Source: Nereocystis luetkeana
Lineage: Eukaryota > Sar > Phaeophyceae > Laminariales > Laminariaceae
Assembly (NCBI GenBank): GCA_031213475.1
Contig: JARUPZ010000010.1
Span: 2,299,001 to 2,363,000, forward strand
Direction of reading: 5' to 3'
Length of the DNA: 64,000 nt
Below are positions 2,312-63,680 of the stretch, piece by piece. Under the pieces are notes generated by a model. It worked only from the letters and a program-made list of their open reading frames with translations, made no database searches and was not told the origin of the DNA. Every line of letters starts with the position of its first letter. Position 1 is the first letter of the stretch. The position numbers and the translations under genes are program-made.

Positions 2312-2443
2312 TACGGAGGGCCATACCTGGTACCAGGTAGTAGATAGGGCCTATGATACACGCAAAAAACTTTATTTTTGCCTAATTTTACCGCCAACAC
2401 TACTACTGGAAGTCTTGGTCCCGTTTACTATGGCCCCCCGTAG
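2312..2443. mobile_element. MITE1 copy (diverged)
   Basis: Left end TACGGAGGGCCATA, right end ACTATGGCCCCCCGTA. A 14-bp insertion converts CCATAGTAG into a double TACCTGGTACCAGGTA motif. Confidence 0.7.
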
Positions 2444-9321: not shown

Positions 9322-9432
9322 TACGGGGGACCGTAGTAAATAGGACCAAATAGTGTCACTGAAAATAGGGTAATATATACCGGTAGGTTATTGTGCGTAC
9401 CGTAGGCCCACTGTACTACGGTCCCCCCGTAA
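9322..9432. mobile_element. MITE1 copy with CCGGTA insertion
   Basis: 111 bp, i.e. the 105-bp canonical length plus 6; TATATACCGGTAGG replaces TATATAGG. Ends TACGGGGG...CCCCCGTAA. A run of A follows. Confidence 0.9.
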
Positions 9433-15450: not shown

Positions 15451-15807
15451 GGGGCCACTACACTCTGACGTACCACTATGTCCATATATATAAGGAGCGT
15501 TTGTATCGACTAACAGCATACACTCGTTGCCTTTCCTACGGTACAGAGTGGTATAGTATACCACAGCGCGGCCAAACGGTGCCAGGCACGGTCTTATCAG
15601 CGCGCGCAGCAGTACGACTACACACCTGTGGTATATATACACCACGTATCACGCGGGGCGTGTCGAATTTCGCCTCGCATTGTACCCCGCGTGCACCCCG
15701 CCCCCCTATTCCCACCAACAGCCGACGCTTAGGGGCGGCCTTGTGAAACCGTTGCCGCGATCGTCCCTTTTTTATATTGGCGCGCTTTCTTTTAGCACCC
15801 CAGGTAG

Positions 15808-21617: not shown

Positions 21618-22012
21618 CTGCCGAAAACAAATCCAAGGCACGAGTCAGGGCAGCAGCAGCATCGGTCAGGGCACACACCCTGTCCCTAAACATAATGACC
21701 TTTTGCATTGAATGTTAGCATAAAAACAATCCCTATATTTCGGGACAAGAGAGTGGTGCTTGTCTGCGATTAACCCTCCCGGAAAAACACGAGGGGGAAA
21801 AACGACGATGAAGAGCAACCATCGCAGCAACCATTGTGGCAACCGCGTGACTGGGGGATGAAATTCTACAACATGGTGTCCGAGGTGGCACATGCTATTA
21901 TATCATAGGAGCCGCACGGCACGCGGGGCAAAACGCTCCTGCCAGTGGTACTGGGCGCTCAAGCTGCGCTCATGTAGGATGTTGATAGCACCGACACCTT
22001 GTTCGTGCTTCA

Positions 22013-22124
22013 TTACGGGGGACCATAGTTAATAGGACCAAACATAGTTAGTAAAAACGGTTAAATATATACCAGGTAGGATTTTGTGTATACCATAGGT
22101 CCTATTAACTATGGTCCCCCGTAA
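22013..22124. mobile_element. MITE1 copy with CCAGGTA insertion
   Basis: 112 bp = 105 + 7. TATATACCAGGTAGG replaces TATATAGG. Terminal repeats intact. Confidence 0.92.
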
Positions 22125-22177: not shown

Positions 22178-22293
22178 TTACGGGGGGGGGGCATAGTAAA
22201 TAAGACCAACTAGCGTAAAAAAAAAAAGAGCGAAATATATACCGGTAGGTTTTAATCTGTACCGTTAGTCCTATTTACTGTGGTCCCCCGTAA
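22178..22293. mobile_element. MITE1 copy with CCGGTA insertion
   Basis: Lies 53 bp from the previous copy. Contains TATATACCGGTAGG, an expanded A run and an expanded G run near the left end. Confidence 0.88.
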
Positions 22294-34149: not shown

Positions 34150-35280
34150 CGTCGGATAGATATTCATCATTGAAGACCCTCCGGCACGCGCGTAATCGGA
34201 GAAAAAAAAAAACAACTCCAAATATTGGATTCTCGTGTCGGAAAGAAAACACTTACAGCAGCCGTAGCATTTGCAGTGGAGCAGAAGTCGTGCAAGCAGC
34301 AGGACCTACCTGCAGCGGTCAGCAGCAGCAGCAGCAGAATGCAGAAGTGCGGTCTATCCTGCGCTCCTCGGCACTCGCTGCGCAATCAACGCCGCCACAA
34401 CAAGAAGAAGACCGACCTCCACTTCGTTGTCCACTTGGTCCGACAAGGGGTCGTTGCGGCGAATATAAGGAGCGTGGCGACAAGAGTGCACGCGCTTGCA
34501 GCAGCAGCAGCAGCGGCAGCAGCCGCAGCCGCGAACAGCAGCCGCAGCCGCGAACAGCAGCCGCAAGCAGCAGCAGCGCTTGCTTGGAGCAGCTCTCTCG
34601 CTTGCAGCAGCTCTCTTGCTTGCAGCAGCTCTCTTGCTCGAAGCAGCTTTCTTGCTTGCAGCAGCTCTCTCGCTTGCAGCAGCTCTCTTGCTTGCAGCAG
34701 CTCTCTTGCTCGAAGCAGCTTTCTTGCTTCAAGCAGCGATTGCTTGCCGCAGTGCTTGCTCGCCGCAGTGCTTGTAATTGGCGCAAAGCTTTGCAGCAAC
34801 AGCATCACCGCATCTGCACACTGCTTGCACGAGCAGCAGCAAGCTTGCAGGAGTAGCATCAACAGTACGTGACGTGCAACAGCAGCACCCGTCTCCTCCA
34901 GCAGCAGGCAGCAGAGAGGCGTGCAGCTCGCAGAACCTCAACGGTGGCAGACACGGCCCGAGGTCACTCTCGGGGCAAAAGCTTGGCCAACCCAAAATGT
35001 CCGGAGAGTTTTCCGCGAACAGAATGCAGCGATCGAATTTCACACTGTAATACCCATACGTCTCTCTATTATATTACGGGGGGCCATAGTTAATAGGACC
35101 AAACCTTGTTGGTAAAAATGGTTAAATATATACCGGTAGGTTTTTATGTATACCATAAGTCCTATTTACTATGGTCCCCCGTAATAGTCGCACACTATGC
35201 TATCCAAACATGCGTAACTTCGTCATATTTGTGCCAATTAAATTGTGATTAGCAGTCGGTAACAGGAGAATAACGGGAGA
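34150..35280 (+). repeat. Repeat D copy 1 (about 1.1 kb)
   Basis: Aligns end to end with the reverse complement of 53.33-54.42 kb: ATTGAAGACC...CCGGCA near one end and TGCTATCCAAACATGCGTAA near the other. The interior has CTTGCAGCAG-type tandem repeats (34592-34745) and frames rich in Ala, Ser or Gln. It carries a MITE1 at 35074-35184. Likely a non-autonomous mobile element; no coding domain recognised. Confidence 0.8.
35074..35184. mobile_element. MITE1 copy with CCGGTA insertion, inside repeat D
   Basis: 111 bp = 105 + 6 (TATATACCGGTAGG). It interrupts the 34.15-35.28 kb copy of repeat D; the 53.3-54.4 kb copy lacks it. Confidence 0.92.
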
Positions 35281-36128: not shown

Positions 36129-36237
36129 TTACGGAGAACCATAGTTAATAGGACCAAATATTGTTATATAGTAAAAATGGTTGAATATATAGGTTTTTAG
36201 GTATACCATAGGTCCTATTAACTATGGTCCCCCGTAA
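36129..36237. mobile_element. MITE1 copy
   Basis: 109 bp with a 4-bp TATA expansion (GTTATATAGTAAA) and TA on both sides. Confidence 0.92.
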
Positions 36238-39412: not shown

Positions 39413-39517
39413 TTACGGGGGGCCATAGTTAATAGGACCAAATATTGTTAGTAAAAATGGTTAAATGTATAGTTTTTTATGTATACCATAGGTCTTATTA
39501 ACTATGGTCCCCCGTAA
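39413..39517. mobile_element. MITE1 copy, canonical
   Basis: 105 bp, TA-flanked, arms nearly perfect. Serves as reference. Confidence 0.95.
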
Positions 39518-42598: not shown

Positions 42599-42703
42599 TT
42601 ACGGGGGGCCACTGTTAACAGGACCAAATATTGTTAGTAAAAATGGTTAAACATACAGGTTTTTATGTATACCATAGGTCCTGTTAACTATGGTCCCCCG
42701 TAA
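42599..42703. mobile_element. MITE1 copy, canonical
   Basis: 105 bp, flanked by TA and TA, inserted in a local ACTGACCGGCGGTTAC-type repeat. Confidence 0.95.
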
Positions 42704-44701: not shown

Positions 44702-44806
44702 TTACGGGGGTCCATAGTTAATAGGACCAAATATTGTTGGTAAAAATGGGTAAATATATAGGTTTTTATGTATACCATAGGTCCTGTTAACTATGGTCCC
44801 CCGTAA
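44702..44806. mobile_element. MITE1 copy, canonical
   Basis: 105 bp, TA-flanked; TATTAATA motifs lie just to the right. Confidence 0.95.
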
Positions 44807-47852: not shown

Positions 47853-48049
47853 CTACGAACCACAAAACAAAGTCTACCATTAATATGAATATTATATTAT
47901 TAATACAACGTAATACAAGTACGAGTATGAAAAAATATCATACCCGCACCAACAAAAAAAAACTGGTACTGCCGCACGGACCGACCGGTTCAGAAGTAAA
48001 AGTCTGCTCGTATGCATAGTCTCATCAATGTTATTCCTGTAATACAGAC

Positions 48050-48400
48050 CACTCTGTCAAAAAAATAAGGATCGTTTGAATACTAACATGAATACCAATC
48101 GTTACTTATATTTACGGCCAGACAGACACCACTCTGTCTTGGAAATGTAAGGACCGTTTGGGTGTCCGTGTGATAACACAACAGTGCTCAACATTGCCGG
48201 ACACACCGTGCACAAACCTCACGTACATCATGTACGCAAACAACAGCAGTACACCAGTACACGTGGTATCATACTGACGACCCCGCATCTGCTCGAAATT
48301 GCTGGCAATATACAACAACACCTCTCCGGGCCGGAATATTAAGACCGTTTAGACATGAACATGAATACCGAGCGGTCCTTCCATTATGCCCAGAATGGTA
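48050..48400. repeat. Repeat H copies (GGAAATGTAAGGACCGTTT-type)
   Basis: CCACTCTGTC...ATAAGGATCGTTTG, CCACTCTGTCTTGGAAATGT and GGCCGGAATATTAAGACCGT occur in succession; a reverse arm GCGGTCCTTCCATTATGCCC follows. Suggests another short inverted-repeat element. Related motifs lie at 53.25, 54.50 and 57.50 kb. Confidence 0.55.
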
Positions 48401-51525: not shown

Positions 51526-51742
51526 TCACGGGGGACCATATTTAACCCTTTTAGGACCGCAGTCCCGTTTTGGGGACAAACTACTTAGAATTTGAGTGGT
51601 TTGTCCCCAAAACGGGACTGCGGTTGTAAAGGGGTTAATAGGACCAAATAATGTTATTAATAGTGAAAATAGGGAAATATGTACCTGGCAGGTTTTTGTG
51701 TGTACTGTAGGTCCTACCGGTAGTAACTATGGTCCCCCGTAA
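51526..51742. mobile_element. MITE1 copy carrying a nested MITE2 and three micro-insertions
   Basis: 217 bp. Subtracting the nested MITE2 (93 bp net) and micro-insertions of 6 (TATTAATA), 7 (CCTGGCA) and 6 (TACCGGTA) gives exactly 105. Confidence 0.93.
51542..51638. mobile_element. MITE2 copy nested in MITE1, TTAA target duplicated
   Basis: 97 bp including both TTAA. The MITE1 arm normally reads AGTTAATAGG; here TTAA flanks the insert on both sides. Ends TTAACCCTTTTAGGACCGCA...AAAGGGGTTAA. Confidence 0.95.
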
Positions 51743-51945
51743 TACTGCTGCTGTATATACCACCAACAACCACAATAACAACCCACCATCACCTCCACCA
51801 TTAATGTGAAGAACGCACACGCACCACAACTAATAAAATACACAAAAACAAAAACCACGACAACAAGCTACCGCCTCAACCTCCGTTGTGAAGAACACGC
51901 ACGCACCACCACACCACCAACAACCACAACAAGAACCCACCACTA

Positions 51946-52078
51946 TTTCGGGGGACCATTGGAAATACCAGGTAGGACCTACGGTATACACAAAAACCTA
52001 CCTGGTACCAGGTATCTGGTATATATTTCGCAGTTTTTACAAACAGCATTTGGTCCTTTTTAATATGGTCCCCCGTAA
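51946..52078. mobile_element. MITE1 copy with four 7-bp insertions
   Basis: 133 bp = 105 + 28. One TACCAGGTA sits in the left arm; TACCTGGTACCAGGTATCTGGTA-type sequence adds three more units where other copies read CCTATATAT. Confidence 0.93.
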
Positions 52079-52120: not shown

Positions 52121-52225
52121 TTACCGGGGACCATAGTAAATAGGACCAAATGTTGTTGCTAAAAACACGTAAATATGTAGGTTTATGTGTGTACCGTAGG
52201 TCCTATTTACTATGGCCCCCCGTAA
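52121..52225. mobile_element. MITE1 copy
   Basis: 105 bp, TA-flanked, 43 bp from the previous copy, opposite orientation. Confidence 0.93.
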
Positions 52226-54439: not shown

Positions 54440-54610
54440 ATATACTACAGTAAAACAATCCGTATATTTCAGGCATAGTGGTTCTTCGTACCTCTCTGGT
54501 GGTCGGAAATATAAGGACCAAATGATCTCAATATTAATGACTGAACATCCCTTGTATTTCCGCACAGAATGATATGGCTTTTCACGTGCCTCGCAATGCT
54601 GCAGACGGCT
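54440..54610. repeat. Repeat H-like copy
   Basis: GGAAATATAAGGACCAAATG and the inverse CCTTGTATTTCCGCACAGAA are arranged as inverted arms. Confidence 0.5.
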
Positions 54611-57150: not shown

Positions 57151-57808
57151 CCACGCCAAGAAATCGATTCCAAGAAGGGAAAAAAAAAAAAAGAGAAGGG
57201 TTAACCTGGTGGACTACGTATGCCTTTTACGCGCAACCTTACGAACCATCTCACTTGGGCTCGAAATAATAGTATTGTATGTACATACTCGTACATACGA
57301 GAAGGCACGTCTCAAAAGGAAATCGAGTTGCACAGTCGGGGTGCCCCACTCCTTCAGGCGGAAATAATTAGGGTCCAAAAGCAACCCTCTCTGCACGAAT
57401 GGCAAAACAGCACGTCTCGTACGTACGTATAGACTAAGGGTCCAGGATAGAGGAGGTGGGCACCTTCAGCAGGTCAACACCATTACCGTATGCCACTCTG
57501 TTCCGAAACGTAAGGACCGATTGTACATTTAAAAATTTATGTAAACGTTCATTACATCTCGGGCCAGACCGGAAATATAGCAAACGCTGATTTCTCTGCG
57601 GCAAAGAACGGTGGCTTACGCAGCAAACACCGAGCGCTGCGCCTAGATATGGAAAAGGCCTATTTTACCAGATACTTCTGGTGGCGCATGTTTGTCACGA
57701 GAAGACTTCATTCAGCCCCTTCATTCCCTCGTAGACTTCCGTCTCTGTAAGTAGCATGGCCACCGTATGTACCGTATTTACACGTAAACACTTACGGAAC
57801 CCTCTGAC

Positions 57809-61702: not shown

Positions 61703-61814
61703 TTACGGGGGACCATAGTTAATAGGACCAAATATTGTCTGTAAAAATGGTTAAATATATACCAGGTAGGTTTTTATCTATACCATAGATTCTATTAACT
61801 ATGGTCCCCCGTAA
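61703..61814. mobile_element. MITE1 copy with CCAGGTA insertion
   Basis: 112 bp = 105 + 7 (TATATACCAGGTAGG). It lies 8 bp from a MITE2 copy. Confidence 0.93.
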
Positions 61815-63575: not shown

Positions 63576-63680
63576 TTACGGGGGACCATAGTTAATAGGA
63601 CCTATGGTATACATAAAAACCTGTATATTTAAGCATTTTTACTAACAATATTTGGTCCTATTAACTATGGTCCCCCGTAA
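63576..63680. mobile_element. MITE1 copy, canonical
   Basis: 105 bp, TA-flanked, nearly perfect arms. Confidence 0.95.

Follow-up and report, generated by a model that had tools for sequence, protein, structure and literature searches.

The window analysed here is a 64,000-nucleotide stretch (C10:2299001-2363000) of the 465-Mb Nereocystis luetkeana assembly. It contains copies of a short element, MITE1, whose manually entered consensus of 105 bases served as the ruler for 56 aligned MITE1 copies. Together with loci L002-L028, the window forms a 286-kb sample; L002-L008 were picked by similarity to an unscarred MITE1 copy and are therefore biased against scars. Rfam and tRNA scans of the window gave no matches. 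The preliminary description had named five undisturbed copies of exactly 105 bp (39413-39517, 42599-42703, 44702-44806, 52121-52225 on the plus strand, and 63576-63680) and six longer ones (9322-9432, 35074-35184, 22013-22124, 61703-61814, 51946-52078, and 51526-51742), and all 11 intervals have the lengths given there. Alignment to the consensus also bore out that the extra bases are mostly palindromes of 6-7 bp at TA sites.

The 217-bp MITE1 copy at 51526..51742 (plus strand) holds three scars and a nested element. Its gains are TATTAA at consensus site 36, ACCTGGC at 58, and TACCGG at 83, seen in the sequence as TATTAATA (51655..51662), the mutated TACCTGGCA at the site-57 hotspot (51682..51690), and TACCGGTA (51715..51722). 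The remaining 93 bp (51542..51634) are those of the nested MITE2, which by direct reading consists of 89 bp with CCC...GGG ends plus one TTAA. Its duplicated TTAA target (51542-51545 and 51635-51638) is that of piggyBac elements, and from this target and the CCC ends we take MITE2 to be piggyBac-like. The copy at 51946..52078 (minus strand) exceeds the consensus by 28 bases, which had been read as four 7-bp units. This reading holds, with 21 bases at site 57 and TACCTGG at site 83; a mutation is present in one of the four units (TACCAGA). On the forward strand, these gains appear as TACCAGGTA (51966..51974) and as three abutting units, TACCTGG-TACCAGG-TATCTGG-TA (51999..52021), the last one mutated.

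Simpler cases occur elsewhere in the window, most of them at site 57. TACCGGTA is found there in three MITE1 copies (9378..9385, 22240..22247, and 35131..35138); in the copy starting at 35074 the extra bases are TACCGG. The copies starting at 22013 and 61703 each gained TACCAGG at the same site, giving TACCAGGTA (22070..22078 and 61760..61768). For 9322-9432, the aligner placed CCGG (+4) at site 57, whereas direct reading gives the six extra bases originally claimed; in addition, this copy is missing its initial T and contains one surplus C close to its end. A tandem scar, TACCTGGTACCAGGTA (2324..2339), occupies site 90 of the copy 2312-2442. In the copy 36129-36237, site 36 reads TATATA in place of TA; it is here that the 217-bp copy bears TATTAATA.

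Among the 56 aligned copies, the TA sites with CC..GG-type gains are 57 (one gain being aligned at 58), 83, and 90, and a single TATTAA gain falls on site 36; small gains of other kinds are also present. Such inserts could be marks of MITE1 subfamilies, in which case a few scarred founders would have multiplied and the real events would be few. Some scars may indeed have been copied along with MITE1, given that copies with a CCATGG insert (L048, L053, L054, and L061) also have the neighbouring letters AAACATATACCATGG in common. The single scarred subfamily that the preliminary description had named as evidence against scars was not seen: the ten carriers among the 56 copies need ten changes on the MITE1 tree, and the seven at site 57 need seven, a weak argument on a weakly resolved tree (2 of 53 inner branches starred). 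In addition, the scars of different copies are spread over sites 57, 83, and 90, and 80 of the 90 TACCWGGTA in the 286-kb sample are not part of any recognised MITE1 copy. We therefore consider descent from a few scarred founders extremely improbable.

These motifs are far more abundant than expected by chance. The window has 31 TACCWGGTA against an expectation of 0.48 (100 order-1 Markov sequences, maximum 2), together with 10 TACCGGTA and 20 TATTAATA against 0.9 each under the same order-1 model. With an order-3 model, the 286-kb sample has 90 TACCWGGTA (2.4 expected), 20 TACCGGTA (3.8), 58 TATTAATA (5.8), and 16 TACCAGGGTA (0.6). CCWGG has TA on both sides 90 times in this sample and each of the 15 other dinucleotides with its complement at most six times. 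Between CC and GG, the TA-bounded forms in the 286 kb have A or T in 90 cases, nothing in 20, AG or CT in 16, and C or G in 6. In the whole 465-Mb genome, TACCWGGTA occurs 182,395 times, i.e., once per 2.5 kb, compared with 1,744 for the reversed pattern. Twenty 10-kb pieces taken at round coordinates from contigs C1-C9 contain 45 in 197.5 kb, which is a lower density.

Two TA-flanked families have ends that match these scars. MITE1 itself starts with TTA and ends with TAA, has terminal inverted repeats TTACGGGGG...CCCCCGTAA, and has TA on both flanks in 31 of 45 near-full copies. Its flanks run on with G, T, and A (0.54, 0.54, and 0.48), as do those of TATTAATA (0.53, 0.55, and 0.59), and the TATTAATA scar thus fits a putative product of MITE1. 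The second family, MITE3, is about 80 bp long with terminal inverted repeats CCACTCTGTCCC...GGGACAGAGTGG; it starts with CCACTCTGTC and has TA on both sides in L087 and others. With its CCA...TGG ends, MITE3 fits as the candidate source of TACCWGGTA. The preliminary description had anticipated TA-adjacent transposon termini beginning TTA, CCGG, or CCWGG. The first exist in MITE1, whereas the ends found for the other type begin CCACTC..., and the 286-kb scan recognised no families ending in TACCAGG, TACCTGG, or TACCGG. The excision-scar interpretation given there is supported by these two families.

MITE3 relatives are present both in the window and in the wider sample. The window element at 15472..15553 (minus strand) reads TA-CCACTCTGT...ATAGTGG-TA and belongs to the family taken as the source of the CCWGG scars. 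Further MITE3 copies lie at 21676..21757 (minus, E 5e-17), 48048..48122 (plus), 48128..48204 (minus, degraded), 48320..48399 (plus), 54499..54573 (minus, degraded), and 57493..57571 (plus, E 7e-16). Across the 286 kb, 15 MITE3 rows stand against 90 TACCWGGTA scars, one of these rows being in a larger repeat and three having weak E-values (0.001-0.009). The end TACCACTCTGTCCC occurs 1,132 times in the genome and three times as the reversed pattern; this is not a copy number because 25 of 40 fetched places bear a motif found in a larger repeat with an end of this type. That larger dispersed repeat carries the MITE3-type left end at a fixed place, often with ATCGTACTGCTGTACTGGCA as left flank and with GAGGCGCGCGAGCGCGAAGCGCG in its body, and was found in most of L089-L108 as well as in L114, L115, L119, L123, and L126. 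In 40 MITE3 copies chosen for a perfect left end, only four right ends are perfect, and many surviving copies therefore look damaged.

MITE3 was discovered only by way of a MITE1 site that it occupies. A search of the genome with a pattern that covers the right half of the site-57 hotspot and excludes CCWGG and CCGG matched 174 places, and 60 stretches were fetched from among 100 of the 174 matches listed, picked by the two letters before GG, a choice that dropped almost every member of the TAGG and AGGG classes. Only one of the 60 is filled: the MITE1 copy L087 contains an 82-bp element (TAs included), TA-CCACTCTGA...TCAGAGTGG-TA or, read at longer ends, TA-CCACTCTGACC...GGTTCAGAGTGG-TA, at a TA that is scarred in other copies. 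Empty, filled, and scarred states are therefore all seen at one MITE1 site, in paralogous copies. Within the limits of a pattern barring CCWGG and CCGG, the other stretches include CCATGG (14), CCTTGG (3), CCAGGG (2), and five other CC..GG types (one each); 35 are of other kinds, of which 15, by hand count, end in TATGG (TATGG-TA forms).

The excess of scars over elements, both in the genome count and in the 90 scars against 15 MITE3 rows, could be taken to mean that what moves is the 7-base palindrome alone, a tiny unit inserting ready-made at TA, with no larger element involved. We give this next to no credence, as the filled site in L087 lies at the scar position, the scars have the target preference of MITE3 (see below), and the varied joins at one site (CCATGG, CCTTGG, CCGTGG, and CCAGTGG) point to end joining rather than to copying of a fixed unit.

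The target preference of MITE3 was derived from 40 fresh copies, separate from the first set and with none adjoining the MITE1 motifs looked for; one of the 40 (L156) carries the larger-repeat motif and was kept. Outside the TA, position +1 is C or T (0.79), +6 is T (0.57), and +7 is A (0.64). We scored scars outside MITE1, with tandem ones dropped and L129-L132 added. CCWGG scars (71) match the preference of MITE3 (p=1.1e-18) and not that of MITE1 (p=0.95), whereas TTAA scars (56) match that of MITE1 (p=4.8e-20) and not that of MITE3 (p=0.85). Target preference thus tells the scars of the two families apart. CCAGGG/CCCTGG scars (14) also match the MITE3 preference (p=2.9e-4). Earlier, the test had been run with 28 flanks, two from L087 and a few perhaps being chance matches, after leaving out the 25 of 40 places with the larger-repeat motif; this version gave the same picture.

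Other motifs are less clear. CSG (53) matches neither preference (MITE3, 0.48; MITE1, 0.99), CWG (102) does not match MITE3 (0.89) and matches MITE1 weakly (p=0.0086), and TATATATA (88) matches MITE3 weakly (p=6e-5). The weak matches of TATATATA and CWG suggest that the preference scores also catch something unspecific, with AT-rich repeats matching slightly. TACWGTA, which has the shape of a Sleeping Beauty-type footprint, is in excess in the 286 kb (101 against 39, order-3 Markov), and neither preference clearly fits it. As its source, TACAGACAG was considered and rejected, being mostly a local repeat in L019, with one of the five rows listed lying in the window.

Within MITE1, the TTAA scar site 36 ranks first of the 17 TA sites by the MITE1 preference. 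By the MITE3 preference (26 flanks, none from L087), sites 83, 57, and 90, which are scarred, rank third, fourth, and tied eighth of 17; sites 76 and 69 are the top two, yet have no CC..GG scar.

Taken together, the micro-insertions were very probably left behind on excision by two families of cut-and-paste transposons that target TA. Footprints of this kind at TA sites are known from Tc1/mariner-like transposons. In the mechanism that we propose, a transposase would be supplied in trans and insertion would duplicate TA; on excision, the cuts would fall three bases in from each end, so that the chromosome would retain 3′ overhangs of TTA or CCA, to be sealed by end joining. TTA overhangs could pair over two bases to give TTAA, the MITE1 scar TATTAATA. 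CCA overhangs could not pair, and an overlap with an A/A mismatch would give CCAGG or CCTGG, while blunt or trimmed joining would yield CCATGG, CCGG, or TGG. The products of MITE3 would thus be mostly TACCWGGTA, with TACCAGGGTA/TACCCTGGTA and further variants in smaller numbers. Overhangs of three bases would account for both main products. A two-base cut is disfavoured because CCGG would then dominate, but the 286 kb has 20 CCGG against 90 CCWGG. CCATGG, expected of blunt joining, has no occurrence in the 286 kb. Tandem 7-base units such as those at 51999-52021 may arise because each scar leaves two TAs seven bases apart that can be hit again. Comparable steps are described for Sleeping Beauty and mariner transposases, whose nicks lie three bases within the element and produce 3-base 3′ overhangs; the footprints of Sleeping Beauty correspond to the overhangs of the element ends (PMC7827188).

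If replication slippage or the instability of palindromes had deleted MITE3 hairpins down to their tips, no transposase would be required. MITEs are inverted repeats capable of forming hairpins, and no transposase has been linked to these families, but the products keep 2-3 bases per end and both TAs, with one form dominant (A or T, 90), whereas slippage from TA to TA would be expected to lose one TA and both tips. Such an origin is very unlikely in our view.

A further question is whether CCGG and CCWGG come from two distinct transposon families. Outside MITE1, CCGG, i.e., TACCGGTA (15), shows neither preference (MITE3, p=0.52; MITE1, p=0.087), and this lack of MITE3 preference would favour two families. 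Inside MITE1, both forms occur at the same TA sites (57 and 83), which together with the CCA...TGG ends makes a single family possible. Furthermore, the 286 kb contains no repeated TA-bounded family with CCGG ends (perfect 11-base ends), and CCGG shows a small excess (20 against 3.8) that is in part background. We regard separate families as unlikely, and TACCGGTA is probably also a product of MITE3, at least inside MITE1. CCGG and CCWGG, originally ascribed to separate families, need not be separate.

For a source of transposase, DDE_3 (PF13358) had no match in the genome (30 candidates scored), and DDE_1 (PF03184) had 28. Four of these 28 loci were read for about 1.5 kb on either side, and no MITE3 or MITE1 inverted-repeat pair was present at them. 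In the search for a long transposase-bearing relative of MITE3, the 23-base end was found at 72 places, with no inward-facing pair at kilobase distance among the matches listed. Pfam scans covered 28 open frames (8 + 10 + 10, some being the same frame twice), the sampled sequence having 80 frames of at least 200 aa. Window frames gave no matches; those in the sampled loci were RVT_1, RVT_2, RT RNase H, and NADAR, and no DDE transposase was present among the scanned frames. A single open frame on the minus strand (L010:1-2730) joins a NADAR domain with a reverse transcriptase, and a second NADAR frame lies at L018:1471-2232. MITE1 and MITE3 have the TA duplication and terminal inverted repeats of Tc1/mariner (IS630) elements, and 2-3 terminal bases per end lie between the two TAs after the presumed excision. 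These searches linked no transposase to either family, and the putative assignment to Tc1/mariner is based solely on target, ends, and footprint.

Both in number and in uniformity, the scars appear out of the ordinary. With a total of about 180,000, these near-uniform scars may outnumber the surviving, mostly damaged copies several times over. As a tentative reading that we hold with less than even confidence, the genome may have been nearly cleared of a transposon family by excision, with scars outlasting the elements and recording their full jumping history. Change in the scars is roughly 7% per base (63 excess one-mismatch words against about 88 exact), compared with about 15% in the remaining MITE3 copies (a rough hand estimate from the 4 of 40 perfect right ends). 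The scars may thus be younger than the remaining copies, as if every copy capable of leaving has left.

To our knowledge, most descriptions of excision scars concern a few loci or assays. Here, the scars of two families can be separated by sequence and target preference in one assembly and in very large numbers. They provide a fossil record of jumps for which no element survives, and reveal the way in which this lineage repaired breaks with a probable end structure. Loss of a family by leaving, as opposed to decay, becomes testable. Moreover, in genomes of this kind a short palindrome at a TA site need not be a regulatory motif but can stem from repair.

Pogo-like elements also target TA, and DDE_1 matches occur in this genome, but the four DDE_1 loci read have no inverted-repeat pair of either family. 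In the literature covered, which is partial across journals, we recognised no report of comparable scar numbers. The closest likeness is to Sleeping Beauty and other Tc1/mariner elements, with their TA target and duplication, 3-base 3′ overhangs, and footprints formed by the overhangs (PMC7827188); the differences are that the main products here are TTAA and CCWGG, which would come from TTA and CCA ends, that no transposase was linked, and that 182,395 occurrences are counted for the commonest motif. Like the elements described here, Stowaway MITEs and rice Osmar elements are short, non-coding, and TA-targeting, with footprints of 1-4 inverted-repeat bases beside the TA duplication (PMC1925063; PMC4561436). 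Stowaway ends read CTCCCTCCRT (PMC1925063), whereas MITE3 starts with CCACTCTGTC. Between two rice genomes, 8 of 94 excisions, counted over all superfamilies, left the duplicated target only, and the others had deletions and/or filler (averages of 18 and 13 bp); the scars described here keep element bases and so would not be "perfect" by the rice criterion (PMC4423477). For rice mariner elements, the same source gives insertions exceeding excisions by 2.6-2.8 to 1 (PMC4423477), whereas here the scars exceed the recognisable MITE3 copies by 90 to 15 rows in the 286 kb.
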